In this document: positions 98-44,842 of the stretch, piece by piece
Layout of the letters: each line of letters opens with the position of its first letter
Position numbering within the stretch: position 1 is the stretch's first letter
Source: Deltaproteobacteria bacterium
GTDB taxonomy: Bacteria > Desulfobacterota > Syntrophia > Syntrophales > Smithellaceae
Length of the DNA: 44,892 bases
Assembly (NCBI GenBank): GCA_025361065.1
Contig: JANYAY010000177.1
Span: 1-44,892 of the forward strand
Direction of reading: 5' to 3'
Program-made: the position numbers and the translations under genes
The notes under the pieces: model-generated
The model's input: only the letters and a program-made list of their open reading frames with translations
The model's database searches: none
Told to the model about the DNA's origin: nothing

Positions 98-214
98 ATA
101 TCATGTGCTACAAAATAGGACTTTTCTATTTGCTCCTAACAATATTAATAAAATATATTGATAAAACAATAAAAATCATGTAAAAAATAATTACAAATTT
201 CGGGAGATGTGTTT

Positions 215-2047
215 TTGGCCACCACAGACGATATTACTTCTACAGAAAAACTGCTTGATGTGATACGTGGAAATAACACGGATGCATTTTCTGCAGTTGA
301 AAAACCAGCGAATTCCTCCTCAAAAAAATCAAAACTACCCAAAAAGGGCATGAGTTTGCCCAAGATATTTTTTACTGAAAAGAAAATATTTACTGTCGGG
401 GTAGACATAGGTCATGAATTCATCCGTTTATGCAAAACGACCAGGGCGTCTGACGGCAGGCCGGTTTTAGTTGATTATAATATTGTCGGTTATAATAGGG
501 TCGATAAAGCCTCTCCGGAATTCAAGGAAATATTGAAATCATCCCTGACTTCTTTTTGCGGCAGTCCGGCGAACTGTAATATTTGGGTGTTGATGAGTGC
601 CGCTGATGTTAATGTGCAATATATCAAAGTTCCTCGAGTAGCAAAAAAACAGTTGGAAAATGCTATATATTGGACTGCTAAGAAGGAAAATCCCTTCGAT
701 GAAAAAGATTATATGGCTGATTTTGAACTGCAGGGTGAAATTATTGATCAAGGAATTCCCAAATATTCAGTTATGTTTTATACGGCGCCGAAAGCCGAAC
801 TGGAAAAAGTTAAAAAAATATTCTCGGATATTGGAATAACCCTTACAGGCATTACCGTAACTCCGTTTGCGATTCAAAATATTCTCCGGAAGAAAGGGAT
901 GCCTTCCGAAGATGGCGCCGTAGCCAGTTTGTTTATTGGCAATGATTTTTCACGTATAGATATCTATGATAAAGAACATCTGGTTATGACGAGAGGAATA
1001 AAGACCGGCATAACCAGTATGATGGAATCGATAATTGAAGGAATTAACGAAAACGATAATGATTTAAAAATTGAAAGGGAAGATGCCAGAAAAATTCTTT
1101 TCAGCATTGGTCCTGACTCCACAAAATTAACAGAAAAAGATGCAGGGTTTGATCTAAAAAAAGAAGAAATATACGAAATGACACTGCCGGCACTGGAAAG
1201 ACTTGTCCGTCAGGTGGAAAGAACTTTAGAACACTACTCTACCGCACTTGGTTTCGAAAAAGTGGGGAAAATTTATATTTCCTCGGCAATGAATGTTTCT
1301 GAACAGATTATTCAATATATCAGTGAACAGTTAGGTATAAAAATTGACATATTTGATCCATTTACCCAGCAAATGGATCATCATGTTAATAAAACCATAT
1401 CCCTTTCGGAGAAAATGTCTCTTGTTCCAGCATTCGGGCTTTCCTGTTCTGATAATTTCCAGACTCCTAATTTCATTTTTACCTATCAGCAAAAAAACAA
1501 AGAAACGTCAATTAGAAGACTGAACAGAGGAATTTTTGCAGCATTCGTAATGGCGTTAATTATTTCTTTAACTACTTTAATTTATCAAGGTTTGGAAGCA
1601 AGGTTACAAAACAATAAACTGACAAAGTTGAAAAAAGTCATATCAAATTATAACCCTCTTTTAACCAAAGAATTAATAGAAAAAAAGTCTCGTGAATTGG
1701 CGACAAAAAGACAAATTACCAGAAAATATGCCGAGCGGTATATGAATTTAGCGGTAATTGGGGAAATTTCCAATCTTACACCGGCAAATATTCGTCTGAT
1801 CAATTTAAAGATAAATTTAGCTAATAAGACAAAAGAAAAAACAGATAAAAGTGTCGGTGATGGAATTACTTTAGAAGGATTGGTTTCCGGTGACCGTAAT
1901 ATGCTGGATTCATATCTGGCTCAATACATAATGGAATTAGGCAATTCTCCAATATTGAGCCTCGTTAAATTGGAAAAAAACAATGTTATTAACTATAAAA
2001 AAGGTAATGTGCTGCAGTTTACACTGAATGCCAGGATTGGTAAGTGA
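215..2047 (+). CDS. mshI: MshI-like PilM-PilN fusion protein, pilus inner-membrane assembly
   Basis: The N-terminal part is a PilM-type actin-like ATPase (phosphate-1 motif VGVDIG near residue 63, domain to about 420). It is followed by one membrane segment near residues 440-462 and a periplasmic PilN-like coiled segment to the C-terminus. PilM binds the PilN tail in the cytoplasm; here both are one chain, as in MshI of MSHA-type pili. The TTG at 215 is preferred over the GTG at 209 because GGGAG at 202-206 is 8 nt from 215 and only 2 nt from 209. It is the first gene of a plus-strand run and its stop overlaps the next start. About 60 residues before the actin-like fold are low complexity (Ser/Lys rich). 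The family call is strong; the exact symbol is by synteny. Confidence 0.85.
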   Translation: MATTDDITSTEKLLDVIRGNNTDAFSAVEKPANSSSKKSKLPKKGMSLPKIFFTEKKIFTVGVDIGHEFIRLCKTTRASDGRPVLVDYNIVGYNRVDKASPEFKEILKSSLTSFCGSPANCNIWVLMSAADVNVQYIKVPRVAKKQLENAIYWTAKKENPFDEKDYMADFELQGEIIDQGIPKYSVMFYTAPKAELEKVKKIFSDIGITLTGITVTPFAIQNILRKKGMPSEDGAVASLFIGNDFSRIDIYDKEHLVMTRGIKTGITSMMESIIEGINENDNDLKIEREDARKILFSIGPDSTKLTEKDAGFDLKKEEIYEMTLPALERLVRQVERTLEHYSTALGFEKVGKIYISSAMNVSEQIIQYISEQLGIKIDIFDPFTQQMDHHVNKTISLSEKMSLVPAFGLSCSDNFQTPNFIFTYQQKNKETSIRRLNRGIFAAFVMALIISLTTLIYQGLEARLQNNKLTKLKKVISNYNPLLTKELIEKKSRELATKRQITRKYAERYMNLAVIGEISNLTPANIRLINLKINLANKTKEKTDKSVGDGITLEGLVSGDRNMLDSYLAQYIMELGNSPILSLVKLEKNNVINYKKGNVLQFTLNARIGK

Positions 2048-2586
2048 AAATGGATATTTCTAAATTTAATATTCCGGAAAAAAGTATTTCCTATCTGGTT
2101 ATTTGTGTCGGTATTATTACCATAATTTGTTTGCTGGGTATATATCCTTTGTATCGTTATAATACGAGTTTGACTGATAATATAAGAGAAATAAATTATC
2201 AGATAAAAGAGCAGAATGATCTTATGCCCCAATATTTAGTGTTAGTTAAAAATTTGGAAAAGAAAGAATCTCAGCTTTTACCACTTCCGAAGAGAACAAA
2301 AATATCTCGCGAGCAAGCCGGCAAATTTCAAGAAGAATTCAGAAAAATCGCCTCTAAATCCGGAATCATGACTGTTTCTTTGACACCGGATCTGACTACT
2401 TTGACAACTGATAGCCAATATATTCTGAACAATGCTGTTGTTAAAGGAGAATTCATGAATTTTCGTAAAATGCTCATTGATATGGGGAGTGTTCCATATC
2501 TGGACAGTATAGACGAAATTCTTATCCAGCAATATCCGGATGCAATAGAATATAGAATGAAAATATCGATAGAAACGGGAAAATGA
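2044..2586 (+). CDS. mshJ: PilO/MshJ-like pilus assembly protein
   Basis: This is a 180-residue bitopic protein with a short cytoplasmic N-terminus, one transmembrane segment at about 17-37 (hydrophobic, Ile/Val rich), a coiled-coil stretch (about 40-80) and a compact alpha/beta periplasmic domain. This is the PilO architecture. PilO pairs with PilN and links the inner-membrane platform to PilP and the secretin. The GTG at 2044 overlaps the preceding stop by 4 nt (GTGA) and has AGGA at 2033-2036, which favours it over the ATG at 2050. Sequence conservation in this family is low, so the call rests on topology and position between the PilM/N fusion and the PilP-like gene. Confidence 0.78.
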   Translation: MKMDISKFNIPEKSISYLVICVGIITIICLLGIYPLYRYNTSLTDNIREINYQIKEQNDLMPQYLVLVKNLEKKESQLLPLPKRTKISREQAGKFQEEFRKIASKSGIMTVSLTPDLTTLTTDSQYILNNAVVKGEFMNFRKMLIDMGSVPYLDSIDEILIQQYPDAIEYRMKISIETGK

Positions 2587-2603
2587 TCTGAAAGTAAACA
2601 ATT

Positions 2604-3092
2604 ATGCCCAAGTTAAATAAAAGAGAAATTATAATTGTAGTACTGATGGCTTGCGCTGTTTTATTTGCTGTTTATGAAATATTTATCGCCGGTTCAGCGG
2701 GGAAAAAAGCAGCATTAGTTCAAACGGGAATCAATGATACAAGCAGCAATATCGCCGCTGCTTTAATAGATCCTTTAGCAACTGTTAATGCTTATATAAT
2801 AACCCGCGCTGAAGCCGATTGGCAAAAAAATCCTTTTATGGAAAGAAATTCCTACAAAGAATGGACAGCCAGAGAAGGTGCGGCAGTTAGCAATACTTCA
2901 GCAGTAAAAATTATTTATTCCGGTTATCTTGATGTCGGTAAAAAGAAGATGGCGATTATCAACGGGATGGAATATGGCCCGGGAGAGAAATTAGAAATGG
3001 ATGGCTATGTTTTAAAAGAAATAAGGCCTTCCAAAGTAATTATCCGTAACAGAAATACCGGAAGCGATTTGGATATATTTATACAAGAATAA
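2604..3092 (+). CDS. mshK: PilP/MshK-like periplasmic linker protein
   Basis: The product is a 162-residue protein with an N-terminal membrane anchor (about 8-28), a flexible middle region, and a small beta domain in the last 60 residues resembling the homology region of PilP/GspC. That domain contains the recurring pattern of an 'ING..Y..GE' turn followed by 'V..I....V', typical of these domains. In this family the beta domain contacts the N-domains of the secretin, which is encoded next. It starts 17 nt after the previous gene. The product is longer than typical MshK and lacks a visible lipobox, so it is anchored by a membrane helix rather than lipid. The assignment rests on domain shape and gene order. 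Confidence 0.68.
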   Translation: MPKLNKREIIIVVLMACAVLFAVYEIFIAGSAGKKAALVQTGINDTSSNIAAALIDPLATVNAYIITRAEADWQKNPFMERNSYKEWTAREGAAVSNTSAVKIIYSGYLDVGKKKMAIINGMEYGPGEKLEMDGYVLKEIRPSKVIIRNRNTGSDLDIFIQE

Positions 3093-3159
3093 ATTCAGAA
3101 ACTCAGTGAGAATTTATGCGGAATATTTGCAATCCCGCATGAATCTTGAAAATGAATTA

Positions 3160-3179
3160 CCGATATCGAATAATATCGG
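3160..3179 (+). other. Small hairpin in the leader of the secretin gene
   Basis: A perfect 7-bp stem (CCGATAT at 3160-3166, ATATCGG at 3173-3179) with a 6-nt loop sits in the 133-nt gap before the secretin gene. There is no T-tract, so it is not a convincing terminator. It might act as a processing or mRNA-stability site that sets secretin dosage relative to the upstream genes. Confidence 0.3.
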
Positions 3180-3225
3180 GATATAATTTAACAGCATAAA
3201 AATTTAGCATTGGAGGATTATCACC

Positions 3226-4848
3226 TTGAAATGCTCGGCAATTAGCAGAAATATTGTCAGATTTGTTTTAAGTATCTTTTTCTTAACAATATGTTGGGGT
3301 TGCTCCGGCGAACTCAATAGTACAAAAAAAGACCCCATCTTTGAAAAATGGAGTACATTGGCGGAAAATTCTCAGGGTCACTCCCCTGTGTCGCAAACGA
3401 AAAAAATAGATATATCAGCACTATCGGCCAAACAGATATCATCTTCTTTAATGGGAACATCCGCCAAACAGCTGCCTAATAAGAAAATCAATTTAAGCAT
3501 GCGGCAAGCGGAGCTCAAATCAGTATTGCGGGCATTAGCCAGATCTGTTGATTTGAATATCATTGTAAAAAACGATGTTAAAGGTGAAATCAGTGTCGAT
3601 TTCCGGGGAATCCCCTGGAGTCAGGCCTTTACGGGATTACTTAATACTTACGGGTTATCCTATATCTGGGAAGGCGATATTATTCGCGTAATGACTAACG
3701 AAGATATGGATTTGGATATAAAACAAAAAATAAGCAGACGGGATACTTTATGGGTAGAACCGCTTTTGCCGCCTGTTCTTGTTAATATTGATTATGCCGA
3801 TGCCGAAAAACTCGCAAAAACACTTCAGGATTTTTTAACAAAAGATAAAGATGGCAAACCACGCGGTTCAGTGAACAGAGATGAGCACAGTAATTCGCTG
3901 GTGATTTCAGCCATTCGTGAAGATTTAATCAAGATGCTGCCGATAATTGAAAAGATAGATAAACCGACACCGCAGATATTAATCAAAGCCAATATTGTGG
4001 AAACGACCAAATCGGTAGCCCGTGATTTAGGAATTATGTGGGGTGGAAAGTATAACACCGGTGATTATACCGCACGGGGTGGCGGTACCCGCCTGAGTTC
4101 AACTGCCGATATCAATCCGATAGCCGGCGGTCCCGTGGGTATAGGAGGAACGGGTTTTGCTTCTAATTTTCAGGCTTCCAATCTCACAACCACAGCATCC
4201 GGTTCATTGGCTCTTTTATTCGGAGCAATAGGCGGAAATATACTGGAAGTTCAATTACAGGCATTGCAGAAGGAGAGCAAACTGAATATTCTCTCCAGTC
4301 CTTCCATAACGACATTGGATAATCAGTTGGCATTTACCGAAAATGGGCAAAGAGTGCCTTTTGTAACATTAACGCAGACTGCCGGCAGTGCGCCGACACA
4401 GACGGTGACTTTTGAGAATGCTGTCCTGAGACTGGAAATTACCCCGCATGTCATTGACGGAAAAAATCTGAAAATGAAGATTCTGGTAAAGAAAGACGAA
4501 CTTGATTTTTCGCACGCTGCCGGCATGCTGGGCAATCCCATTATTTTGAAGAAACAAACTGAAACCTCTCTTATAATTAAAGACGGAGACACAATAGTTA
4601 TTTCCGGCTTGACTAAACAAACCAAATCTGATGCAGAAGCCGGCTGGCCCTGGCTCAAGGAGATACCTGTATTGGGCTGGCTCTTTAAGGCAGATGGTAA
4701 GAGTGATGCCATGGAAGAAGTCCTTATCTTTATAACGCCTCATATTTTACAGGTTGCCGACGCAAACTCCAAAGCGAATTCAGAAGGCGTTAGTGCCAAT
4801 GAACAAAATACGGATACAAAAGCTGGAACTGCTCAGACTGAAAAATAA
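3226..4848 (+). CDS. mshL: Type IV pilus secretin, MshL/PilQ family
   Basis: This is the outer-membrane channel through which the pilus passes. The N-terminal signal ends near Cys26 (CWGC, a weak lipobox match). An STN-like short domain follows at about residues 90-165, then a NolW/N1-type domain at about 185-250. The C-terminal secretin domain (about 345-515) shows the late motif 'PVLGWLF' and the terminal 'EEVLIFITPHIL' strand. A Gly/Thr-rich insert near 280-340 is the expected gate region. The last 25 residues are polar and disordered. The TTG at 3226 is chosen because GGAGGA at 3212-3217 is 8 nt upstream. Its position after the PilP-like gene and before the AAA protein matches mshK-L-M order. 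Confidence 0.92.
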   Translation: MKCSAISRNIVRFVLSIFFLTICWGCSGELNSTKKDPIFEKWSTLAENSQGHSPVSQTKKIDISALSAKQISSSLMGTSAKQLPNKKINLSMRQAELKSVLRALARSVDLNIIVKNDVKGEISVDFRGIPWSQAFTGLLNTYGLSYIWEGDIIRVMTNEDMDLDIKQKISRRDTLWVEPLLPPVLVNIDYADAEKLAKTLQDFLTKDKDGKPRGSVNRDEHSNSLVISAIREDLIKMLPIIEKIDKPTPQILIKANIVETTKSVARDLGIMWGGKYNTGDYTARGGGTRLSSTADINPIAGGPVGIGGTGFASNFQASNLTTTASGSLALLFGAIGGNILEVQLQALQKESKLNILSSPSITTLDNQLAFTENGQRVPFVTLTQTAGSAPTQTVTFENAVLRLEITPHVIDGKNLKMKILVKKDELDFSHAAGMLGNPIILKKQTETSLIIKDGDTIVISGLTKQTKSDAEAGWPWLKEIPVLGWLFKADGKSDAMEEVLIFITPHILQVADANSKANSEGVSANEQNTDTKAGTAQTEK

Positions 4849-4920
4849 AACGCCATAGAAAAAAAGATTTGAATAATAATCGATAGCCTAATATTTAAGT
4901 GATGAGATTAAAAGTGCAAA

Positions 4921-6492
4921 ATGGAGTATTACAATCTTCTCAATTTAAAGAAAGAACCATTTTCCAACTCGCCGGAGCCGGAATTTTTATTTCAATCACC
5001 GCAATACACCGCTTGTCTACAGAAACTGGAATTGGCCGTTCGTTTGCGCCGGGGCCTGAATGTTGTAATCGGAGATATCGGAACAGGAAAAACTACTCTG
5101 TGCCGCAAACTTATTCAAAGCTTCAGCGCTACCCCGGAAGATTCGGAAAAAATTGAAACTCATCTATTACTTGATCCTTCGTTCAATAATGCCGTTGATT
5201 TCCTGAGAAATGTTGCCGTCATACTGAACATTAAAGATATAGATGGCAAAGAAAATGAATGGCAATTAAAGGAGAAAATCAAGGATTATCTTTTCATAAA
5301 AGGAGTGAACGAAAATAAAACTGTTGTTTTAATTATTGATGAAGGACAGAAAATTCCGGAGAATTGTCTGGAAATTTTACGGGAATTTCTTAACTACGAA
5401 ACAAATGACTTCAAATTACTGCAAATAATCATCTTTGCCCAGGAAGAATTCAAAACAATAATAAAGAAACGGGAGAATCTTACTGATCGGATCAACCTTG
5501 TTTATTACCTTCAGCCTTTGAACTTTGCGCAAATGCGCGCCATGATCAGATACAGGATCAGTGTCGCCAGAAATATGGAAAGCGGGCCGGAATTATTCAC
5601 CCCGGGGGGAATATTGGCAATATATTTGTCAACAAAGGGTTACCCGCGAAAGGTTGTTTCTCTGTGCCATCAAGTTCTTTTAATGCTGATTATTCGGGGA
5701 GAGAAGAAAGCCGGCTTTTTTTTTGTAAGAAAGTGCTGGAAAGAGATGATCACACCCCTGCTGAAGAAACAGAAATGGGCGGCAGCTAGCCTGATAATTA
5801 TTATAGTAACAGTTATTGCTGCAGGAGTATTTGTTCTACTGGATAATGGTATCAACCTTTACCCGCAGTCAAGTGTGCCTAAAATTGCACCGGAAACTCA
5901 ACAAAAACCGGTAGCCATGATTCCTGCAACACCGGCGGTAACTCCAGCTCCTTCTCCGTCAGAGTTAATTATTCCGGAAAATAAAAATGAAGAAAGAAAG
6001 ATGCCTGCAAACCTCGGAATATTATCTATGAAAAAAGGGGGGAATCTTTGGCGAACAATCAAAAATATATACGGTGAGGTTAATACGGGCATTATTGATA
6101 AGATAAATAAAGCTAATTCCCATATTAATAACAAAAACAAAATATTAGTAGGGGAAAGAATAACTATTCCGGCAATTCCTGCAAAGATTAAACCTATTGG
6201 GGAAGGAAGTTTAATTGTCATACTGAAAAAAGGGAAAGATATAAAATCTATTTATGACTTTTTTTATGAAAATTTAAATAATAAAAATATGCCGCCAACT
6301 GTATTTTTCTCATTCTGGAATAATAAAAATGGGCTGATATTTACGGTTGCCATTGATAAAAGCTTTAATAATATTCAAGAAACGCAGATAGCAATCAGTA
6401 AATTACCTGATCAGATTGCTCGCGAAGCAAAAATTATGTCCCAATGGAATGAAAATACTATTTTCTTTAACAATCATGTATTTAATCGTTGA
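4921..6492 (+). CDS. mshM: ExeA/MshM-like AAA ATPase with membrane span and LysM-like domain
   Basis: The cytoplasmic AAA domain has Walker A GDIGTGKT at residues 51-58 and Walker B 'VVLIIDEGQ' near 133-141. Next come a transmembrane helix at about 289-310, a Pro/Ala-rich periplasmic linker, a LysM-like segment at about 370-420 ('LWRTI...ING..I' pattern, 'GERITIP' end) and a C-terminal region of unknown fold. ExeA/GspA proteins use ATP and peptidoglycan binding to help insert secretins through the cell wall. MshM proteins are usually shorter and lack the periplasmic module, so this copy is an ExeA-style version in the mshM position. The start is the ATG with the full conserved family N-terminus; its ribosome binding site is weak. 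Confidence 0.85.
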   Translation: MEYYNLLNLKKEPFSNSPEPEFLFQSPQYTACLQKLELAVRLRRGLNVVIGDIGTGKTTLCRKLIQSFSATPEDSEKIETHLLLDPSFNNAVDFLRNVAVILNIKDIDGKENEWQLKEKIKDYLFIKGVNENKTVVLIIDEGQKIPENCLEILREFLNYETNDFKLLQIIIFAQEEFKTIIKKRENLTDRINLVYYLQPLNFAQMRAMIRYRISVARNMESGPELFTPGGILAIYLSTKGYPRKVVSLCHQVLLMLIIRGEKKAGFFFVRKCWKEMITPLLKKQKWAAASLIIIIVTVIAAGVFVLLDNGINLYPQSSVPKIAPETQQKPVAMIPATPAVTPAPSPSELIIPENKNEERKMPANLGILSMKKGGNLWRTIKNIYGEVNTGIIDKINKANSHINNKNKILVGERITIPAIPAKIKPIGEGSLIVILKKGKDIKSIYDFFYENLNNKNMPPTVFFSFWNNKNGLIFTVAIDKSFNNIQETQIAISKLPDQIAREAKIMSQWNENTIFFNNHVFNR

Positions 6493-6607
6493 TAGTAAAC
6501 AGAATTGTTGGATAAAATAACTGATGGTATGTATTTTATCATTAAAACTCATTATTTTAAATCAGTATAATTGAGCTCTTATGATAAGGGAATTCTTCGG
6601 AGGTTAA

Positions 6608-8311
6608 ATGAAAGCAAAAAAACGTTTAGGTGAAATGCTGGTAGAAAATGGAATTATAACCGAAGAAAAGCTACAGCAAGCTCTTATTGACCAGAAGAAA
6701 ACCGGTCTCAAACTAGGTCAATTCTTAATCAGACAGAGTACGGTTAACGAGCAGCAAATTATTGATTTATTAAGTCGACAGCTTAAAATTCCCAAATATC
6801 ATCCGGATAGTTATCCAATAGATATGGATTTAGTTCGTCTCATCCCGATCGATATTGCCCAGAAGTTACAAATAGCTCCTTTGAAAAAAAAGGGACGCCT
6901 GCTAACAATTGCCATGGTTGATCCGCTGGATATAAGCGCAATGGATACACTGGAAGTGCTGACCAATGTTGAAGTTGAACCTGTTGTTTGTTCGGAAAGA
7001 GAAGTCAATCAACTCATCAGCAGCATTTACGGAATGCAATCCGGTCTGGGAAATTTAATGGAAACGATGGAAATCGAATCCCAGCAGGATGTCCAGGAAG
7101 AAGAACAAAGTAAGGAAGAATTTCAAGTTGCCTCGTTGCAGGATATGGCCGGTCAAGCCCCGGTAATTCGCCTGGTGAATTCCATTTTCAGCCAGGCAAT
7201 TCGTGAAGGAGCCAGTGACGTTCATATCAGTCCGCAGCAAAACAGCATTCAACTGCGTTTTCGGATTGACGGTAAGCTCCATGATGTTCCCTCACCGCCG
7301 AAATCATTGTCGCTGTCGATTATTGCCCGGATAAAAATACTCGCCAATATGGATATTACAATTTCCCGCATCCCTCAGGATGGTCGATTTACACTAAAGA
7401 TGGAAAACAAGGAAATCAATGTTCGTGTTTCTTCCATGCCGACGATCTATGGAGAGAATATGGTGCTGCGGCTTTTAGATATGAGTGCAGGGGTCTATTC
7501 TCTGGACCGGCTCGGGATGATTAAGGAAGACCGCGACAAAATTGCCACTATGGTGCGCAAAGCTTATGGCATGATTTTAAGTACCGGACCGACGGGAAGC
7601 GGCAAAAGTACCAGCCTTTACTCTATTTTAAACGAAATCAATCGCCCCGATACCAACATTATTACACTCGAAGACCCGGTCGAGTACAGGGTTGCCAATA
7701 TTCGTCAGGTTCAGCTCAACCGTAAGGCTGGTATGACATTTGCGGGTGGTCTGCGGGCAATCCTTCGTCAGGATCCCGATGTTATCATGGTGGGAGAAAT
7801 AAGAGATTCGGAAACCGCGGCCGTTGCCATTCAGGCAGCTCAAACAGGCCACCGTTTACTCAGCACTATCCATACCAATGATGCAGCCGGCGCAATTACC
7901 CGCTTTGTCGATATGGGAATTGAACCTTTTCTTGTTGCTTCAGCGCTTCTCGTTTCTTTTGCCCAGCGCCTTGTCCGAACAGTTTGCCCCTATTGCAAGG
8001 AGTCATACAGACCGCCGCAGATCGCCCTGACCGCCTGGGGGCTGGATAAAGTCGAAAATGCCAATTTCCAGCATGGCAAAGGTTGTTTTCAGTGTATGAA
8101 TACAGGCTATAAAGGAAGAACAGGCATCTTCGAGGTTCTGGTCAATGATGAAGGCGTTCAAGAGCTGATCATGCAAAGAAAATCGGCCCAGGAAATCACG
8201 CGTATGGCAGTGGCAGAAGGGAAGCTGCGGACTTTGAAGGAAGATGCCGCTGATAAAGTTATCAGGGGAATCACAACCATGGAGGAAGCCGCCTCGGCGG
8301 TTATGGTGTAA
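6608..8311 (+). CDS. mshE: Pilus extension ATPase, PilB/MshE family, with MshEN c-di-GMP motif
   Basis: The product is a 567-residue hexameric secretion ATPase. The MshEN domain (about 1-140) begins with R6-L7-G8, L11, L22, L26 and Q29, the spacing of the c-di-GMP-binding motif defined in MshE. The second half-motif (35-58) is degenerate, with Lys for Arg and Ser for Gly. The catalytic core has Walker A GPTGSGKS near 328-335, the Asp box, and Walker B 'VIMVGEIRD' near 391-399. A zinc site is formed by CPYC (about 460-463) and CFQC (about 493-496). GGAGGT at 6599-6604 supports the start. It is followed by the platform gene 3 nt after its stop. It is the motor for pilin polymerisation and the most likely direct second-messenger input to this pilus. 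Confidence 0.93.
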   Translation: MKAKKRLGEMLVENGIITEEKLQQALIDQKKTGLKLGQFLIRQSTVNEQQIIDLLSRQLKIPKYHPDSYPIDMDLVRLIPIDIAQKLQIAPLKKKGRLLTIAMVDPLDISAMDTLEVLTNVEVEPVVCSEREVNQLISSIYGMQSGLGNLMETMEIESQQDVQEEEQSKEEFQVASLQDMAGQAPVIRLVNSIFSQAIREGASDVHISPQQNSIQLRFRIDGKLHDVPSPPKSLSLSIIARIKILANMDITISRIPQDGRFTLKMENKEINVRVSSMPTIYGENMVLRLLDMSAGVYSLDRLGMIKEDRDKIATMVRKAYGMILSTGPTGSGKSTSLYSILNEINRPDTNIITLEDPVEYRVANIRQVQLNRKAGMTFAGGLRAILRQDPDVIMVGEIRDSETAAVAIQAAQTGHRLLSTIHTNDAAGAITRFVDMGIEPFLVASALLVSFAQRLVRTVCPYCKESYRPPQIALTAWGLDKVENANFQHGKGCFQCMNTGYKGRTGIFEVLVNDEGVQELIMQRKSAQEITRMAVAEGKLRTLKEDAADKVIRGITTMEEAASAVMV

Positions 8312-8314
8312 AGT

Positions 8315-9538
8315 TTGGAAAATTTTAATTATCAGGCAATTGATGAAAGCGGTGCAAATGTATCCGGAACAATAGAGGCCGAGTCGCCGGATATGGTTGA
8401 GAAAATCCTTCTGTCGAGGGGATATATTCCTTCTCAGGTAACACCGGCTCTCAAGTCTGGGAGTGGCTACTCTTTTTTAGACAGAATAAAGGAGAATCTG
8501 TCTGCCGTTAAAATTTCCGACCTGATTCTTTTTACCAAACAGTTTCGTTCGATGATGCAGGCCGGCATTCCGATCATCAGGCTTTTACTTGTTCTCGAAA
8601 ATCAGACACAGAACAAGACACTAAAGCTTGTTATTTCGACAATCAGCCAGGATATCAAATCAGGTTTATCACTCCACGACGCAATGAAGAAACATCCTGC
8701 AATTTTTTCTCCACTTTATCTCAGTATGATCAATGCCGGAGAGATAAGTGGTGCTATTCCCGATGTTCTGGCCAAGCTGATTGACATAATTGAACATGAG
8801 GCAAAAATAAAATCGGACATCAAAGCAGCATTACAATACCCGATTATCGTCGTCGTTGCCCTGATCATTGCTTTTTTTGTCCTGCTGACGTTCGTTATTC
8901 CCAAATTCGCCACTATATTTGCGAAAGCCGGAATCGAACTGCCTATGCCCACCAAGGTAGCAATGTTTCTCTATCATGGCATATCTAATTACTGGTACAT
9001 CCTCATCACTTTGGTAGTAGGGATAATTATCGGTTTGAGCATGTTTTTCAAGACACCGCAGGGACGTTATGTCCGGGATGCTTTCATGCTGAAAATGCCG
9101 CTTTTCGGACCATTGTTTCAGAAGGCGGCAATGTCCAGGTTTGCCAGCATATTTGCCATTTTACAGTCCAGCGGTGTTCCCGTGATTAGGACAATGGAAG
9201 TTCTCTCCGGAACAATCGGCAATGCAGCCATTTCCCGTGAATTCGAACGTGTAAGTGAACGCATAAAGGAAGGGAAGGGCATTTCCGGCCCCTTGAGTTC
9301 GGCAAAATATTTCACACCGATGGTGGTGGACATGGTGGCCATCGGCGAGGAATCGGGTAATATTGAAGAAATGATGCGGCAGGTTTCGATTCATTATGAC
9401 GATGAAGTTGCTTATGCAGTCAAGGGTCTTGCCGATGCTATCGGTCCAATTCTGATGGTTGGTCTTGCAGCCGTGGTTGGTTTTTTTGCCCTTGCCATTT
9501 TCATGCCTATGTGGGATTTGACCAAAATGACTAAATGA
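8315..9538 (+). CDS. mshG: Inner-membrane platform protein, PilC/MshG/GspF family
   Basis: This full-length 407-residue protein has the two tandem T2SSF domains of the family (cytoplasmic four-helix bundles at about 70-195 and 270-390) and three membrane segments, near 170-195, 222-245 and 375-400. It couples the ATPase encoded immediately upstream to pilin insertion. The start is a TTG 3 nt after the ATPase stop codon, so translation is probably coupled to it. It is the last of the seven assembly genes; a 238-nt gap follows before the pilins, consistent with separate transcription of the structural subunits. Confidence 0.92.
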   Translation: MENFNYQAIDESGANVSGTIEAESPDMVEKILLSRGYIPSQVTPALKSGSGYSFLDRIKENLSAVKISDLILFTKQFRSMMQAGIPIIRLLLVLENQTQNKTLKLVISTISQDIKSGLSLHDAMKKHPAIFSPLYLSMINAGEISGAIPDVLAKLIDIIEHEAKIKSDIKAALQYPIIVVVALIIAFFVLLTFVIPKFATIFAKAGIELPMPTKVAMFLYHGISNYWYILITLVVGIIIGLSMFFKTPQGRYVRDAFMLKMPLFGPLFQKAAMSRFASIFAILQSSGVPVIRTMEVLSGTIGNAAISREFERVSERIKEGKGISGPLSSAKYFTPMVVDMVAIGEESGNIEEMMRQVSIHYDDEVAYAVKGLADAIGPILMVGLAAVVGFFALAIFMPMWDLTKMTK

Positions 9539-9776: not shown

Positions 9777-10184
9777 ATGCTCAACACGACGCTGAAGAAT
9801 CAGAAAGGTTTTACACTCATTGAAATAATTGCTGTTCTGGTTATATTGGGAATTCTCGCTGCTGTTGCCGTCCCCAAATACCTGAGTATGGCTGATGAAG
9901 CACGTATTAAGGCTGCTCAGGGGGCAATAGCCGAGATCAAGGGTCGGCTCTCCTCTGTTCAGGGTAAATACATGATGATTAATAGCGGTACTCCTCCGAC
10001 CAATGCCGTATTGCTTACAGCTGCTACAAACGCTATGGGATATGGCTCATCGGGTAATTTCGTAAATGTAGGCGGTGATTTTGTCCTGACCGTTAGCGGC
10101 GATCCTATTCAGATCTCGGTTACCAGCGTCAGTGGTACTACTCTCTCTCCCGCTGTAAATGGTAACTTCTCGGCAGCCCAATAA
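9777..10184 (+). CDS. Major-type prepilin, first of tandem pair (MshA/PilA-like)
   Basis: This is a 135-residue type IV prepilin. A short charged leader ends at G11, with F12 as the mature first residue and E16 as the +5 glutamate (KG^FTLIE), followed by a hydrophobic alpha1 helix ending at a 'VPKYL' pattern. The C-terminal globular part is small, Ser/Thr/Gly rich and lacks the paired cysteines of classical PilA or MshA. A strong AAAGGAGG ribosome site precedes the ATG, fitting high expression. It is near-identical to the next gene, with four residue differences, and is followed by a strong hairpin terminator. Pseudopilin of a type II secretion system is the alternative; the MSHA-like order of neighbours argues for a pilus. 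Confidence 0.9.
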   Translation: MLNTTLKNQKGFTLIEIIAVLVILGILAAVAVPKYLSMADEARIKAAQGAIAEIKGRLSSVQGKYMMINSGTPPTNAVLLTAATNAMGYGSSGNFVNVGGDFVLTVSGDPIQISVTSVSGTTLSPAVNGNFSAAQ

Positions 10185-10236
10185 GGAATGCGAGGATTAC
10201 TTAAGCTTCAATTCACCGACAACAGATTAAAGATGT

Positions 10237-10275
10237 ACACTGGTTCAGATTGTCATAAATCTGAACCAGTGTTTT
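10237..10275 (+). terminator. Rho-independent terminator between pilin copies 1 and 2
   Basis: A 13-14 bp perfect stem (CACTGGTTCAGAT at 10238-10250 pairing with 10259-10271) has a 6-8 nt loop and is followed by TTTTATTT. It ends 26 nt before the next pilin start, so it would make the first pilin the most abundant transcript and attenuate the second and third. Confidence 0.82.
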
Positions 10276-10301
10276 ATTTAACAAACCTAGAGGCAGGAGA
10301 A

Positions 10302-10709
10302 ATGTTGAATATACCGTTGAAGAATCAGAAAGGTTTTACACTCATTGAAATAATTGCTGTTCTGGTTATATTGGGAATTCTCGCCGCTGTTGCCGTTCCC
10401 AAGTACCTGAGTATGGCTGATGAAGCACGTAAAAAAGCTGCCCAAGGGGCAATAGCCGAGATCAAGGGACGGCTCTCCTCTGTTCAGGGTAAATACATGA
10501 TGATTAATAGCGGTACTCCTCCGACGAATGCCGTATTGCTTACAGCCGCTACAAACGCTATGGGATATGGCTCATCGGGTAATTTCGTAAATGTAGGCGG
10601 TGATTTTGTCCTGACCGTTAGCGGCGAACCTATTCAGATCTCGGTTACCAGCGTCAGTGGTACTACTCTCTCTCCCGCTGTAAATGGTAACTTCTCGGCA
10701 GCCCAATAA
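10302..10709 (+). CDS. Major-type prepilin, second tandem copy
   Basis: This 135-residue prepilin is nearly the same as the gene before it. The residue differences are T4I and T5P in the leader, a Ile-to-Lys change after 'DEAR', and Asp-to-Glu in 'SGDPIQ'. The cleavage motif (G11^F12, E16) is intact. The ATG at 10302 is chosen because AGGAGA at 10295-10300 precedes it and it gives exactly the length of copy 1. A longer in-frame reading from 10188 would translate through the terminator hairpin and is not credible. It may be a dosage copy, or a heterosubunit if the two leaders or the Lys/Ile change alter assembly. Confidence 0.9.
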   Translation: MLNIPLKNQKGFTLIEIIAVLVILGILAAVAVPKYLSMADEARKKAAQGAIAEIKGRLSSVQGKYMMINSGTPPTNAVLLTAATNAMGYGSSGNFVNVGGDFVLTVSGEPIQISVTSVSGTTLSPAVNGNFSAAQ

Positions 10710-10766
10710 ACGGAATATGAAGATTACTCCTCTTCAGATCCCGGGCAAAATATTAAAGATATGACA

Positions 10767-10808
10767 TTGGTTCAGCATTACATAAATCTGAACCAAGGGC
10801 GTTTTTTT
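10767..10808 (+). terminator. Rho-independent terminator after pilin copy 2
   Basis: A 9-bp stem, TTGGTTCAG (10767-10775) with CTGAACCAA (10788-10796), is followed by GGGCG and seven T residues (10802-10808). It is a diverged copy of the hairpin at 10238-10271, with a larger loop and shorter stem, so it probably terminates less efficiently. It lies 15 nt before the third pilin. Confidence 0.75.
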
Positions 10809-10822
10809 AACCGAGGAAAGAT

Positions 10823-11230
10823 TTGCAAAACAATAATTTAAAAAATGAAAAAGGTTTTACTCTTATTGAAATCATTGCCGTTCTGGTCATTTTGGGGGTT
10901 CTGGCGGCCATCGCTATTCCCAAATACCTGAGCATGGTTGATGAGACTCGCACACAGAGCGCCCAGGCAGCAATTGCCGAAATTAAAGGCAGACTTTCCG
11001 CCGCTCAGGCCAAATATATGGTCAACAACGGAGGCGCCGCTCCGACTTCTCCTCAATTGTGGACCTATGCAACCAATAGCAGTGGATATGGTTCCGCAGC
11101 TAATTTGTTAAATGTAGGCAGTGATTTTGTTGCCGGCGGGCAAAGCGCCACGCCAATTCAAGTCTGGATTAGTTCCATTGGCGGTCAAACTGTCAGCGTG
11201 AATAGCACTTATACTGCTGCTGGCGATTAA
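10823..11230 (+). CDS. Third prepilin, diverged paralogue
   Basis: This 135-residue prepilin has the same leader layout (KG^FTLIE, cleavage after G11) and the same helix as its two neighbours, but the globular half differs clearly and ends in an Asn/Thr-rich tail. The start is the TTG at 10823, with GAGGAAAG at 10813-10820 as the ribosome site; no ATG or GTG in frame precedes the leader. A rare start codon plus two upstream terminators predicts lower expression than the first copy, so it may be a minor or alternative major subunit, as MshB is to MshA. No terminator follows; transcription may continue into the next gene 48 nt away. Confidence 0.88.
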   Translation: MQNNNLKNEKGFTLIEIIAVLVILGVLAAIAIPKYLSMVDETRTQSAQAAIAEIKGRLSAAQAKYMVNNGGAAPTSPQLWTYATNSSGYGSAANLLNVGSDFVAGGQSATPIQVWISSIGGQTVSVNSTYTAAGD

Positions 11231-39366: not shown

Positions 39367-39494
39367 TTGTACAACTCCACTTTTGAAATTTATTTAGACT
39401 TACTATTTTTATTTTTATTTGTCCAAAATAATTTCATCATAATATTTGAATTTACTTGATATTCCTCGGTGAAGATAATATCATCAATCAACCA

Positions 39495-39653: not shown

Positions 39654-40205
39654 ATGACGATGGATCAGAAGACAGAAGCGGAGATTATTGCGCGGATATT
39701 AAACGGAGACAGGCAGGCTTATGCCCTGCTCGTCGACGACTATAAAGTCCAAATCTATAATCTGGCTTTCCGGATGACCGGGAATTATCAGGATGCCGAT
39801 GATCTAACCCAGGAAGCATTTATCAAAGCATATAACAATCTCTGGCGATTCGATCAGAAAAGAAAATTTTTCAGTTGGTTATACACAATTTCCCTGAATT
39901 GTATTCGCAATCATCTGAAGAAAAATAAAAGTATCCAGGTTTTAGACCATACAAAAAAGGATCAATATAATGAAGAGCAATCTCCCGAATCTCAGATCAT
40001 TGCCACCCAGGAATCAAACAAAATAGATTCAGCACTTTTAACTTTAGATCAGGAATTAAGAGGTCTACTGATAATGAAATATCAGCAGAATTTGTCTTTT
40101 GAAGAGATTGCCGAAATTGTTGAAAGGTCAATTAGTTCCGTTAAAATGAGAATTTACCGTGGTCTGGAGCGATTAAAAAGACTGATGACAGAAGAACAAA
40201 TGTGA
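39654..40205 (+). CDS. ECF-family RNA polymerase sigma factor (RpoE-like)
   Basis: About 183 residues with sigma region 2 ('YNLAFRMTGNYQDADDLTQE', then 'WLYTISLNCIRNHLKK') and region 4 ('QNLSFEEIAEIVERSISSVK' helix-turn-helix, then 'YRGLERLK'). The region-4 boundary carries the usual 'LLIMKY' strand. The ATG at 39654 (or 39660) is chosen because upstream in-frame codons run through a palindromic repeat and do not resemble a protein. The next gene encodes a membrane protein with an anti-sigma-like N-terminus, and minor pilin genes follow, so the regulon may include pilus or envelope genes. The stop codon lies within a 9-bp direct repeat flanking a MITE-like element. Confidence 0.9.
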   Translation: MTMDQKTEAEIIARILNGDRQAYALLVDDYKVQIYNLAFRMTGNYQDADDLTQEAFIKAYNNLWRFDQKRKFFSWLYTISLNCIRNHLKKNKSIQVLDHTKKDQYNEEQSPESQIIATQESNKIDSALLTLDQELRGLLIMKYQQNLSFEEIAEIVERSISSVKMRIYRGLERLKRLMTEEQM

Positions 40206-40333
40206 TGGTCTCGTAAAAAGTCAAATTTATCCTTTTTTGTCATTCCCGCGAAGGCGTGAATCTAGTCGTTTCAATATGTTCTGGATACCGGCCTTCGCCG
40301 GTATGATAGTTTTTCTATTTTTTACGAGACCAT
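40206..40333. mobile_element. MITE-like element, copy 1 (family B)
   Basis: The 128-bp element has 16-bp perfect terminal inverted repeats (GATGGTCTCGTAAAAA from 40204, complement at 40319-40334) and two internal hairpins, the clearer built on ACCGGCCTTCGCCGGT near 40287-40302. It is flanked by CAAATGTGA at 40197-40205 and 40334-40342, a possible 9-bp target-site duplication that contains the stop codon of the sigma factor gene. No coding capacity. Confidence 0.78.
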
Positions 40334-40342
40334 CAAATGTGA

Positions 40343-40471
40343 CGACCTCGTAAAAAGTCGGAAAAGCCTCAGAATTGTCATTCCGGCGAAAGCCGGAATC
40401 CAGTTATTTAATCATGTTATGGATTCCCGCCGTCGCGGGAATGACATCTTGGGGACTTTTTACGGGTTCAT
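40343..40471. mobile_element. MITE-like element, copy 2 (family B)
   Basis: The 129-bp element has imperfect terminal inverted repeats (about 14 of 16, outer form GACCTCGTAAAAAGTC) and two strong internal hairpins: ATTCCGGC/GCCGGAAT near 40380-40399 and GGATTCCCGC/GCGGGAATG near 40431-40443. It is flanked by CAAATGTGA at 40334-40342 and 40472-40480. The first 53 nt recur at 44790-44842 with one mismatch. Together with copy 1 it fills most of the 326-nt gap between the sigma factor and the membrane protein gene; 40481-40531 is the ancestral spacer with a GGGGAG ribosome site. Confidence 0.78.
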
Positions 40472-40531
40472 CAAATGTGACTTTTTCAGAGCATTGGTTG
40501 TATATTGGTTATATAGTTTGGGGAGAAGTTA

Positions 40532-41128
40532 ATGGAAGAACACGAAGAAATAGCCGAAATTATAAGAAAGATACCTCTCGTTCATCCACCGGAGGCTCTT
40601 ACGTCTCAGATTATGGCTCGGATCGGTGATTTACAACACCAACGTTTTTATATTATCAAGAATTATCTGACAAAACCTCGACAATCAGGATTTAATCCCG
40701 TGGCGGCGATGAAGGACGGCACTACAAGAGAAGAATGTTTTCTCTATTTCATGATGGCGGGTTTTACGCATTTAATTCTGGCATTAGTGCTGTTTTGGGG
40801 ATTCAGGAATTTCCACCTGGAAAATCAAACAATCTTCTGGTTGAGAATTCAGCCGCAGATTGTTTTGTTTCTGACAGGTTTGCTGATTATTGCCGGGATA
40901 GCATTGCTTGTAGGCCCGATCGGCATCAAATTATCCATACTGATGTCATCTGCTTATTTGTCAATTGTGTCTTTCAATGGCATCTTGCTTATCAGCCTGG
41001 TCAATGAACCAATTTTTCGCATACCTGTTATCGGGTTGTTTGGTGCAACTTTTTTAACCGGTATTTTTTTAATATTAATTATCAAAAAGCATTTAGAAAA
41101 AAATTATTTGGAAAAGAGAATATTATGA
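40532..41128 (+). CDS. Putative membrane anti-sigma factor, four membrane helices
   Basis: The 198-residue protein has a cytoplasmic N-terminus of about 70 residues that includes 'HPPEALTSQIMARI', a motif common in short anti-sigma domains, then four transmembrane helices (about 72-92, 106-128, 134-155, 165-186) and a basic tail. I see no HxxxCxxC zinc anti-sigma motif. Position directly after an ECF sigma gene is the main evidence for the anti-sigma role. GGGGAG is 6 nt before the ATG. Its stop overlaps the start of the first minor pilin gene (ATGA), so regulator and minor pilins are translationally coupled. No close family recognised. Confidence 0.6.
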   Translation: MEEHEEIAEIIRKIPLVHPPEALTSQIMARIGDLQHQRFYIIKNYLTKPRQSGFNPVAAMKDGTTREECFLYFMMAGFTHLILALVLFWGFRNFHLENQTIFWLRIQPQIVLFLTGLLIIAGIALLVGPIGIKLSILMSSAYLSIVSFNGILLISLVNEPIFRIPVIGLFGATFLTGIFLILIIKKHLEKNYLEKRIL

Positions 41129-41631
41129 TGCGTCGAAGGATGATGATACATCACCTGCATATGTCCCCAAAGGCAAAAGGGAATTATTTTTTCGGGGTAA
41201 AGGGCTTTACGCTCATCGAGATCTTAGCAGTGCTGATCCTTATATCAGTGATAACTGCTATTGCTGTAGGCCGGATGAACTTTAATGTTAATTTGCCGGC
41301 CGAAACGGATAAATTTAAGTCTAATTTGCGTTATGCCCAACACATTGCTTTGAGCTCCGATCAAAATAATATGTGGAGTGTAACAGTAGCCGATCGTTCT
41401 TATTCACTGACCCGCACGAACAGTACAAATAGCGTGAATATACCGTTTCCCGGCGGGGGTGGTGATTCCACGATTAATTTCCCGGGAGGTGTAAATACCG
41501 GCGGGACCAGCACTGTAATCAATTTTGATCGTTGGGGCAGTCCCGGCAATACTACCATTACAATACCAATGACTGACGGCATTGATACAAATGTTATTAC
41601 TGTAACGAGAAGGACGGGATTTATACCATGA
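41125..41631 (+). CDS. mshC: Minor prepilin, GspH/FimT/MshC-like
   Basis: A 168-residue prepilin with a long basic leader of about 27 residues ending in G, followed by FTLIE and a hydrophobic helix, then a beta-rich domain with a Gly/Thr-rich tail as in GspH. The ATG at 41125 overlaps the preceding stop by 4 nt; ATGs at 41128 and 41161 are alternatives giving a shorter leader. First of four minor pilin-like genes whose order matches mshC-D-O-P. GspH/FimU-type subunits join the priming complex at the pilus tip. Confidence 0.82.
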   Translation: MMRRRMMIHHLHMSPKAKGNYFFGVKGFTLIEILAVLILISVITAIAVGRMNFNVNLPAETDKFKSNLRYAQHIALSSDQNNMWSVTVADRSYSLTRTNSTNSVNIPFPGGGGDSTINFPGGVNTGGTSTVINFDRWGSPGNTTITIPMTDGIDTNVITVTRRTGFIP

Positions 41632-42074
41632 AAGACAGAAAGCTAAGAGGGTTTACGCTGATTGAAGTTATCATCGCGCTGGTTTGCATTTCCCTGCTGG
41701 CAGTGATGATTGTTTCTTTTGGCGGTGATTTTGTATCCCGCAGCACCAATCCTGTCTCATCGTTAAGCAGGGCATCGGACCTCCAGGCAGGTATTGATAA
41801 TGTTACCCGTGGTTATTACAATCTTGCGCTTCCCATTACTCATACAACTCTTGATACATTTAAAACAAATTTGCAGAGTGATCCCGGTACCTATATTGGA
41901 GTGACCGGGGTAAACATTGATACTACTAGAACTAAATTCATTAAGTTTGATGGTACATCCTGTGCAAATGGAAGCAATTGTGAAAACGATAATAGCGACG
42001 CTGATTCTTATCTCAAAGTAACTCTGGAAAACGCTGACGGACAAAGCGTATCGACTATATTCACGGCAAGGTGA
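41628..42074 (+). CDS. mshD: Minor prepilin, GspI/PilV/MshD-like
   Basis: A 148-residue prepilin with a very short leader (MKDRKLRG^FTLIEV), a helix to about residue 30, and a globular part with one Cys pair near 'GTSCANGSNCEN' that could form a disulfide. The start overlaps the preceding stop (ATGA). The 'FTLIEVIIAL' form of the helix is typical of the GspI/PilV class. It is part of the minor-pilin cluster that primes assembly. Confidence 0.8.
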   Translation: MKDRKLRGFTLIEVIIALVCISLLAVMIVSFGGDFVSRSTNPVSSLSRASDLQAGIDNVTRGYYNLALPITHTTLDTFKTNLQSDPGTYIGVTGVNIDTTRTKFIKFDGTSCANGSNCENDNSDADSYLKVTLENADGQSVSTIFTAR

Positions 42075-42077
42075 TTG

Positions 42078-42593
42078 ATGATTATGAAAAGAAACAGAGA
42101 AAAGGGGTTCACATTAATTGAAATTATTGTATCACTTGTCCTTCTGGGCATAGTTGCTTTAATTGCCGGTATGGGATTTGTTACCGTTATTCGAGGTTAT
42201 GTCTTCGCCAAAATGAATGCGGAAATGGTGGCAAAAGGTCAGACGGCAATTACGCGCATGGTAAAAGAACTGGGAGATTGCTCTATTACTGCCGGAACTG
42301 GAACATCTGTTACTTTTACCCGCCCCAATGACGCCACAGCCTATACTTTTTCCTGGGCCGGCGCCGGGAACCCGCTTTTGCTTGGCGATTCTACCGGTAG
42401 TGCCGATACCCTGACGGACCGGGTGAATAATTTTACCCTTAACTATTATAATAACAGCGGTACTGAGCTTTCGCTTCCGCTTTCAGCAGCCGACGTAGCT
42501 ATTACTTCACAGGTTCAAATAACACTGCGATTGATCAGTTATGATAATATGATGCAAACTTTTACCAACAGAGTATATACAAAAGTTCAATAA
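42078..42593 (+). CDS. mshO: Minor prepilin, GspJ/PilW/MshO-like
   Basis: A 171-residue prepilin with leader ending in KG^FTLIEI, a hydrophobic helix, and a larger beta domain. The 'AITRMVKELGD' stretch just after the helix is a hallmark of the PilW/GspJ class. AAGGTG precedes the ATG at 42078; an in-frame TTG at 42075 and ATG at 42084 are alternatives. It begins 3 nt after the preceding stop. Confidence 0.8.
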   Translation: MIMKRNREKGFTLIEIIVSLVLLGIVALIAGMGFVTVIRGYVFAKMNAEMVAKGQTAITRMVKELGDCSITAGTGTSVTFTRPNDATAYTFSWAGAGNPLLLGDSTGSADTLTDRVNNFTLNYYNNSGTELSLPLSAADVAITSQVQITLRLISYDNMMQTFTNRVYTKVQ

Positions 42594-42646
42594 TTATAAT
42601 GGTCAGATAGAAGAGGAAAATGATCGTTCGGAAATAGGGAGAATAT

Positions 42647-44482
42647 ATGCGCAAACAAAAAGGAGAAATTTTGCTGGCTCTGATTGTAGCTATGGTGGTC
42701 ACAGCAATATTGTCGGCCGGTATCGTCGTAATAACTGATTCGACAAATATGAGTGCGGCTAAATCTTCTAATTTTACCAAAGCTCTATATCTGGCCGAGG
42801 CAGGGGTCAGGATCGGGACGAATCAGCCGCAGGGATCAAAGGTTACGTACACCCTTTCGGACAGCAATCAGCTGATCAATGTTAGTGTTCTAGCTGGAGG
42901 CAGCAGCGTTGTCTCGACGGGTGTGGTGAATCCGGGAACGGTTTATGAGGCCAGAATGACGATAACCCGGGTCACCGGTGGCAGCGGGGGTAATAATCCG
43001 GGTAATGATACGCGCGAGAATAATCAAAATGTGCTAAATATAAATGCCGCAACTTTTAATAACTTGAGCGCCTTCAACCTTGCCGGCATTTCCAATCGGG
43101 TGGGCATTCAGGCATTTCTGGCAACCGGGGGTAGTCATGTTTACTGGGCGGCATTAAGTGGTATGGCGACAAATCGTGTGGAAGATTCGGAAAATCCCGG
43201 TTGTTATATCGGTTTTTTATTTGTTCCCATAGCTAAAACTTATGTTGATGTTTTGCGCAGTTCATATAGTACCTATGGAAGTGTTTCCTATGAAATACAG
43301 ACAAAAGTAGGTTGGGATAGTCCCCTGCGTTATGCCGCGCAGGGGATTAATTTCCGCTGGCACGAACATCCCAATTGGCCGGGCAAATATCAGGGATATG
43401 GCGTAAGTTTTATGATATTTAACTCCAGAAATCAGTGCAGTACCAGCCCTGACTATATACCGAATAATATCAAACCGGGACCGGACCCCGCGAACCCGAA
43501 TTCCCTGTCGGGAAGGCTGCTGCTGGTACTGTGGAAACAATCGGTAAATACCGGGTCGGGAGCAATAAGCAGAAAATGGCTGGCTTATGCCGAGCTGGGA
43601 AATCCCACCGGTATTTGTAAGCCTCCCAAAATAAGGAGGATATCTGACGGTCAGTGTGTCGATCCGGGCTTAGATACCTCCGCCGATAATGATCCGCTGG
43701 TTACCGGCTGGCAGGATAATAATGATGGCCGGGTAACCGATGATGCCAGCATTGGTGTGCGCATTGACGATGTCGTCTGGGGAACAACCCATTATAACGA
43801 AATAAAAGTATTTTATGGAGATGCCTCTCCTTATGCCCGCAGTACAACTTCCGATGCATACGCAACAAATACATCCAGAAGGAAATATGCTCCGCAATGG
43901 GTAGACGGCCAGTATTTTACGACGTGGCCCACCCATTACTTTGAAAATTTATCTTCCTCCGACAACACACTTACTTATTGGTCATATAGTCCCTGGTTTG
44001 CATCGTCTTCCTATACTCTTACCGGATTTAAAGGTGATCCCGAAAACGTTATACCGACAACGAGAACCCCGCGTAATCACTATACTGTCCATGCAGCCGG
44101 CACTTCGGGGTTAACCGAGCCGGTATGGCCGACAACTGCCGGAACTAAGTTTGTTGACGGATCGGTGGAGTGGGAAACAGAAGATACTAAACGACCGAAC
44201 GAAACATCCGGTAGTTTGAGAGTGGATTATTTTACTGTGCTTTCGGCCAATCCGCAGGGGTTGGCGGCGCCAGACGATACGAGAGTAGTTTGGATACTGA
44301 ACCCGGCGGCGACGGAGATTACACTGGGCAGTGATAACAGCACCATTAAGACATACGAGTTTGCCCTGGATTCTTTTCCTACCACGCGGGCAGAATTAGG
44401 CCTGCACGGTTTTGTTAATTCGGACGCCAGGGTGATTGCTTTTGACGATCTGTCATTTATCATCATGGGAAAGAAGGAATAA
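42647..44482 (+). CDS. Large PilX/MshP-like tip minor pilin with adhesin-like C-terminus
   Basis: The N-terminus resembles PilX/GspK-type pilins: a short leader to G6, then E7 and the hydrophobic 'ILLALIVAMVV' helix, followed by 'ALYLAEAG' at 46-53, the usual class hallmark. At 611 residues it is three to four times the size of a typical MshP. The C-terminal 550 residues are Asn/Gly/Ser/aromatic rich, with a segment near 484-510 matching the 'GTSG-TEP-WP-T-GT...DG-V-W' pattern found in phage tail and carbohydrate-binding modules. It may combine the MshP and MshQ roles, a tip-located adhesin. It follows the other minor pilins by 53 nt. Confidence 0.7.
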   Translation: MRKQKGEILLALIVAMVVTAILSAGIVVITDSTNMSAAKSSNFTKALYLAEAGVRIGTNQPQGSKVTYTLSDSNQLINVSVLAGGSSVVSTGVVNPGTVYEARMTITRVTGGSGGNNPGNDTRENNQNVLNINAATFNNLSAFNLAGISNRVGIQAFLATGGSHVYWAALSGMATNRVEDSENPGCYIGFLFVPIAKTYVDVLRSSYSTYGSVSYEIQTKVGWDSPLRYAAQGINFRWHEHPNWPGKYQGYGVSFMIFNSRNQCSTSPDYIPNNIKPGPDPANPNSLSGRLLLVLWKQSVNTGSGAISRKWLAYAELGNPTGICKPPKIRRISDGQCVDPGLDTSADNDPLVTGWQDNNDGRVTDDASIGVRIDDVVWGTTHYNEIKVFYGDASPYARSTTSDAYATNTSRRKYAPQWVDGQYFTTWPTHYFENLSSSDNTLTYWSYSPWFASSSYTLTGFKGDPENVIPTTRTPRNHYTVHAAGTSGLTEPVWPTTAGTKFVDGSVEWETEDTKRPNETSGSLRVDYFTVLSANPQGLAAPDDTRVVWILNPAATEITLGSDNSTIKTYEFALDSFPTTRAELGLHGFVNSDARVIAFDDLSFIIMGKKE

Positions 44483-44789: not shown

Positions 44790-44842
44790 TGACGACCTCG
44801 TAAAAAGTCAGAAAAGCCTCAGAATTGTCATTCCGGCGAAAG
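44790..44842. mobile_element. MITE-like family B, left-end fragment
   Basis: These 53 nt match the left part of the element at 40340-40392 with a single mismatch, then break off inside its first internal hairpin. No right terminal repeat follows in the window. Confidence 0.75.

Follow-up and report, generated by a model that had tools for sequence, protein, structure and literature searches.

Among the described systems closest to the locus analysed here, SigW/RsiW of Bacillus subtilis and other pairs of ECF sigma and class I anti-sigma factors are encoded by adjacent genes, and the anti-sigma factor is a membrane protein. The minor pilin operons of MSHA-type and other type IV pili (mshC/D/O/P/Q; with PilY1) encode minor pilins followed by a large tip-type protein, and the MSHA type includes an MshE-type ATPase with a c-di-GMP motif. 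As an analogy only, in PilS/PilR and FlgM/FliA the regulator of the appendage genes responds to subunits or to assembly. In class I anti-sigma domains, helices 1–3 bind sigma4, with helix 1 as the published sigma4 contact, and helix 4 makes contact with sigma regions 2.1/2.2 and accounts for most of the coevolution signal (PMC7406223). Minor pilins sit at the tip of type IV pili and prime their assembly (PMC7541494).

The locus described here shares the adjacent genes and the membrane protein with SigW/RsiW, but its membrane protein has four TM helices instead of one, carries no more of the anti-sigma domain than its helix-4 end, lacks a zinc motif, and is encoded in a pilus-tip operon that is the single predicted target. 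It shares the order of minor pilins and large tip-type protein, as well as the ATPase, with MSHA-type operons, but an ECF sigma gene and an anti-sigma-derived gene head its minor pilin operon. Unlike PilS/PilR and FlgM/FliA, it has neither a kinase nor an exported anti-sigma factor, but an ECF sigma factor with a membrane-bound, anti-sigma-derived protein. Based on the comparative sequence analysis below, we propose, with a probability of roughly 0.75, that a dedicated ECF sigma/membrane anti-sigma module governs the pilus-tip (minor-pilin) operon of an MSHA-like type IV pilus. The components are individually of known kinds; what appears to be undescribed in the literature searched is their combination, the four-TM protein with helix 4 only, and the dedicated promoter-like site. 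The first-pass annotation knew of no such arrangement in MSHA systems, and a search of the literature on ECF sigma factors with minor pilins or MSHA, in papers other than the 2021 ECF re-classification, yielded no description of the pair.

The window, that is, the whole stretch of 44,892 nt that was analysed, is an entire contig of a draft genome. Its genes of interest are as follows:

209–9538, + strand: MSHA-like core genes (MshI, J, K, L, M, E, G-like), named partly by gene order
9777–11230, + strand: three pilin genes of the MSHA-like locus
39654–40205, + strand: ECF sigma factor gene (Pfam regions 2 and 4)
40532–41128, + strand: gene for a four-TM, anti-sigma-derived membrane protein of 198 aa
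41125–41631, + strand: mshC-like minor pilin gene, its start overlapping the stop of the four-TM gene
41628–42074, + strand: minor pilin gene, with an ATGA overlap with the preceding pilin gene
42081–42593, + strand: minor pilin gene
42647–44482, + strand: large pilin-like protein of 611 aa, a probable tip or MshP/MshQ-type subunit

The ATPase of the core cluster was identified as MshE-type with a c-di-GMP motif (NF053729, 64.5 bits against a cutoff of 38). The MshL secretin scored below the curated model TIGR02519 (96.3 bits against a cutoff of 250.2) and passed the PilQ model TIGR02515, and we therefore refer to the pilus as 'MSHA-like'. Two of the pilin genes beside the core cluster (9777–10184 and 10188–10709) form a near-identical tandem pair, apparently a recent duplication. 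Between these pilin genes and the minor pilin operon lie 28 kb (11279–39366) of mainly polysaccharide and glycosyltransferase genes, and a comparable stretch is present in a genome of the same genus (G003). Pfam detected the prepilin N_methyl motif in the products of the genes at 41125, 41628 and 42081. The 611-aa protein has a hydrophobic N-terminus with a sub-threshold N_methyl match (Pfam) and homologues at the equivalent place in relatives, and would be located at the pilus tip.

The sigma gene was correctly called in the first-pass annotation, and its coordinates and reading frame, like those of the neighbouring genes, were confirmed. Pfam detected Sigma70_r2 (4.8e-18, residues 26–92) and r4_2 (6.2e-11, residues 122–174), and the protein has the ECF (group IV) layout of regions 2 and 4 only, joined by a short linker; SigW is the closest to it among solved structures (PDB). 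A conserved element precedes the gene in the window's family:

39418–39484, + strand: conserved sigma70-like element upstream of the sigma gene

The element consists of TTTGTCCAAA (39418–39427) followed by TTGATA (39456–39461)-N17-TATCAT (39479–39484). It was found in about half of the listed sigma upstream regions, and its core, TTGAATTTACTTGATATT, has a single mismatch-free occurrence in the genome. We take it to be a putative promoter of the sigma gene.

The four-TM protein of the window, searched alone, gave no meaningful match in Pfam, NCBIfam or a PDB fold search. Its AlphaFold2 model (33 sequences in the alignment, mean pLDDT 89.6) comprises short N-terminal helices at residues 2–13, 23–35, 38–47 and 56–62, followed by four long membrane helices with almost no periplasmic domain; the four-TM domain gave no informative fold match. 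A profile of the four-TM family, searched in the phylum, matched the end of the anti-sigma domain (positions 3–60), and nearly all of the genes that it matched adjoin a sigma gene, several of them with zf-HC2. In the alignment, the end of helix 3 and helix 4 are retained, including PP ahead of a T-x-x-V/I-M-A-R-type motif:

40589–40636, + strand: segment matching helix 4 of class I anti-sigma domains (PPEALTSQIMARIGDL), codons 20–35 of the four-TM gene

One family member, L038, has all four N-terminal helices, together with the same TM domain and the same gene position, 4 nt after sigma. It matched the NCBIfam anti-sigma models NF010501 and NF052375, both below their cutoffs, and its best PDB match was RsiW both by sequence, weakly (E 0.54), and by fold (probability 1.00 over 69 residues, with a weak E of 0.28). 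The rows returned by VIA-align for the L038 model were generic helical bundles without RsiW, which is no evidence against the likeness to RsiW. Thus the anti-sigma-like N-terminus noticed in the first reading stands as descent, on family homology, but not as a whole domain: helices 1–2 of the four-helix class I domain are missing in the window protein, as in most family members. Since only the helix-3 end and helix 4 are retained, we class the protein as anti-sigma-derived and not as a class I member. Judged by its family, it is the descendant of an anti-sigma factor that kept the region-2 hook and lost most of the rest, and it presumably still functions as an anti-sigma factor, binding and inhibiting the sigma factor. 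Beside other sigma genes, in L113:1790-2419 and L150:1390-2076, a similar anti-sigma-like N-terminus is joined to a carbohydrate-binding-type domain (AMPK1_CBM / CBM48) at the C-terminus.

Among 119 relatives, the four-TM protein was found in 37 genomes by single-sequence search and, by profile, in the locus of one more (G072), and the sigma factor in 39 (E <= 1e-30). The sigma factor was present in 36 of the 38 genomes with the four-TM gene, and the remaining two are fragmented drafts. The two genes adjoin each other in most relatives, a putative cognate pairing, and an mshC-like pilin gene directly follows the four-TM gene in most loci with sufficient flanking DNA. Carriers include drafts of Smithella and Syntrophaceae, a Desulfobulbaceae draft, Desulfovibrio drafts and the isolate Desulfatibacillum alkenivorans DSM 16219. 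The closest relative, G001, has two loci with sigma, four-TM and minor pilin genes (L031 and L056), the second at an MSHA-like cluster. The conservation of the pair with mshC-like minor pilins, on which the first-pass annotation had staked its proposal, was thus found, with the genes nearly always adjacent.

Pilus loci without the pair do exist, as would be expected if sigma and the four-TM gene were chance neighbours of the pilin genes, but an arrangement conserved in dozens of genomes from several families refutes this, and we rejected it as having next to no probability. In G003, a conserved neighbouring glycosyltransferase gene is followed directly by the mshC-like pilin gene (L235), and in G102 the major pilin gene is followed by the minor pilins (L239). 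The pilus gene order is therefore kept in relatives without the pair, which, as far as gene order tells, occupies a fixed place as an optional module and is not a requirement of the pilus.

The same data bear on whether the four-TM protein has lost sigma binding and persists as an accessory membrane protein of the pilus that carries an anti-sigma remnant, the sigma factor being controlled through its own expression. The loss of helices 1–2, including the published sigma4 contact in helix 1 (PMC7406223), from most family members agrees with such a loss, as does the separate conserved element upstream of sigma; however, the helix-4 motif is the best conserved stretch of the cytoplasmic region of the family, and the two genes are almost always retained together. 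We consider the loss of binding unlikely and retain the reading of a functional sigma/anti-sigma module.

When the junctions between sigma and the four-TM gene were listed side by side, the pattern TGTGACT-N14/15-TTGTATA emerged. In the window, the junction contains the following elements:

40206–40480, strand not assigned: two tandem MITE-like repeats, bordered by CAAATGTGA, between the sigma and four-TM genes
40476–40504, + strand: promoter-like site TGTGACT-N15-TTGTATA, the proposed target of the sigma factor

The gap between the two genes is 326 nt, of which the tandem repeat copies make up 275 nt. The 9-mer CAAATGTGA occurs at 40197, 40334 and 40472, in the manner of a target-site duplication. 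Its first copy contains the sigma stop codon and its last copy overlaps the promoter-like site, so that the insertions left the site intact. The repeat is dispersed, with 43 matches across the genome, and a further partial copy seems to begin near 44790. As the corresponding gap in the congener G001 is only 48 nt, sigma and the four-TM gene probably lay close together until the insertions occurred, with an ancestral gap of about 50 nt.

The site ends 27 nt upstream of the four-TM start codon. The exact pattern was found in 34 of the 119 relative genomes, mostly as a single copy, with 37 matches in total compared with 4 for a reversed control pattern. All 34 site-bearing genomes have the sigma or the four-TM gene, and the site occurred in none of the 78 genomes with neither (Fisher p ~3e-23, a value that overstates the association because relatedness was left uncorrected). 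The genome of the window contains one such site, even when the pattern was relaxed to TGTGACTTTT plus GTA at the correct distance; a one-mismatch candidate on contig C16 was discarded because it overlaps a coding ORF. Where other DNA separates sigma from the four-TM gene (L074, L076 and L078), the site stays with the four-TM gene. No site was found in the pilus loci without the pair (L235 and L239), nor at the opposite end of the contig, where the core genes and the pilin genes beside them lie. Desulfatibacillum and Desulfovibrio carry TGTGACTTTT upstream of sigma, together with a degenerate −10 part. With respect to positive autoregulation, which ECF sigma factors show commonly but not universally, the site lies at or upstream of the sigma start in some relatives and downstream of sigma in the window. 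Additional exact copies of TGTGACT-N15-TTGTATA were detected in L227 (G076:C36) and at L039:8398-8426 (G113:C56), near toxin-antitoxin-like or unknown genes, and give no indication of a wider regulon.

Typical ECF promoters have AAC at −35 and CGT at −10 (PMC8103513), and the proposed site carries GAC and (T)GTA at these places. In one family of loci (L102:3075-3103; also L104, L099, L126 and L090), TTGTATA extends into what appears to be the sigma start codon (TTGTATATG), so that a transcript from the site would lack a leader or begin within sigma, an awkward arrangement for a promoter. This overlap, and the resemblance of the site to a loose sigma70 promoter (GTGACT, TATATT), would suit an ordinary promoter of the sigma70 type or a site bound by some other regulator, with the ECF sigma factor acting elsewhere. 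Against this, the presence of the site strictly tracks that of sigma and the four-TM gene, loci with the same pilins but without sigma have no site, and the invariant TGTGAC and GTA core at fixed spacing suits an ECF promoter better. We therefore give little credence to a sigma70 promoter or foreign binding site; the pattern is consistent with an ECF promoter read by this sigma family.

The first-pass annotation had linked the pair to the tip genes through the ATGA overlaps. Both overlaps are real: the TGA of the four-TM gene overlaps the pilin ATG at 41125 (TTATGATG), and the TGA of that pilin gene in turn overlaps the next pilin ATG, at 41628. A start at 41125 implies a 26-residue leader, a long one for a prepilin, and the mshC-like pilin of the window may thus start at a later ATG; among relatives, a possible pilin start lies between −25 and +10 of the four-TM stop in 31 of 36 testable loci. 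However, start/stop overlaps are commonplace in operons and say little about sensing by themselves. The link to the tip genes holds up through the shared promoter-like site, and not on the basis of the overlaps.

In the mechanism that we propose, the sigma factor would be made from its own promoter, probably of the sigma70 type, and free sigma would transcribe a single operon from TGTGACT-N15-TTGTATA, with the four-TM anti-sigma-derived gene first, then the minor pilins and then the large tip-type protein. The retained helix-4-like segment may hold the sigma factor at the membrane via region 2. Each burst of tip-subunit synthesis would also raise the level of the inhibitor, a negative feedback predicted because the inhibitor gene is the first gene of the sigma-activated operon. 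As the core genes and pilins at the other contig end are without the site, only the tip subunits would be controlled. The restriction of the site to genomes with sigma or the four-TM gene suggests that the pair turns the tip genes of this adhesive pilus on and off in many relatives of sulfate-reducers and syntrophs.

The near-absence of a periplasmic domain makes it more likely that the four-TM protein reads a signal in or at the inner membrane than a ligand from outside. Any such signal would be sensed by the membrane helices, and unassembled pilins are the obvious candidate. The first reading went further, suggesting that the pair senses pilus assembly or surface contact, with the minor pilins or the assembly process signalling directly to the four-TM protein. 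The constant adjacency of the four-TM gene to minor pilins, the plausibility of a membrane signal, the position of minor pilins at the tip and their priming of assembly (PMC7541494) and the effect of a specialised minor pilin on surface sensing in Caulobacter (PMC12607857) all point this way; yet co-regulation explains the adjacency equally well, and the four-TM domain has no informative fold match. We regard direct sensing as a possibility of rather modest weight. A bolder proposal, that the protein represents a new type of anti-sigma factor with four TM helices and a helix-4 hook only, which reads minor pilins or the pilus base in the inner membrane and matches the supply of tip subunits to assembly, is more speculative still, and we hold it to be doubtful.

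Under the proposed control of the tip operon by its own sigma factor, regulation of the minor pilins alone, and not of the major pilin or the motor, could determine the number of pili started, since minor pilins prime assembly. A sigma factor whose only target operon includes the gene for its inhibitor would, if true, give a clean example of transcription control specific to an appendage. The four-TM family suggests that an anti-sigma domain may be reduced to hardly more than a single helix, with a bearing on the question of its essential part. Relatives with the pair and relatives without it offer a natural contrast which, together with the predicted promoter, would provide a directly testable system.
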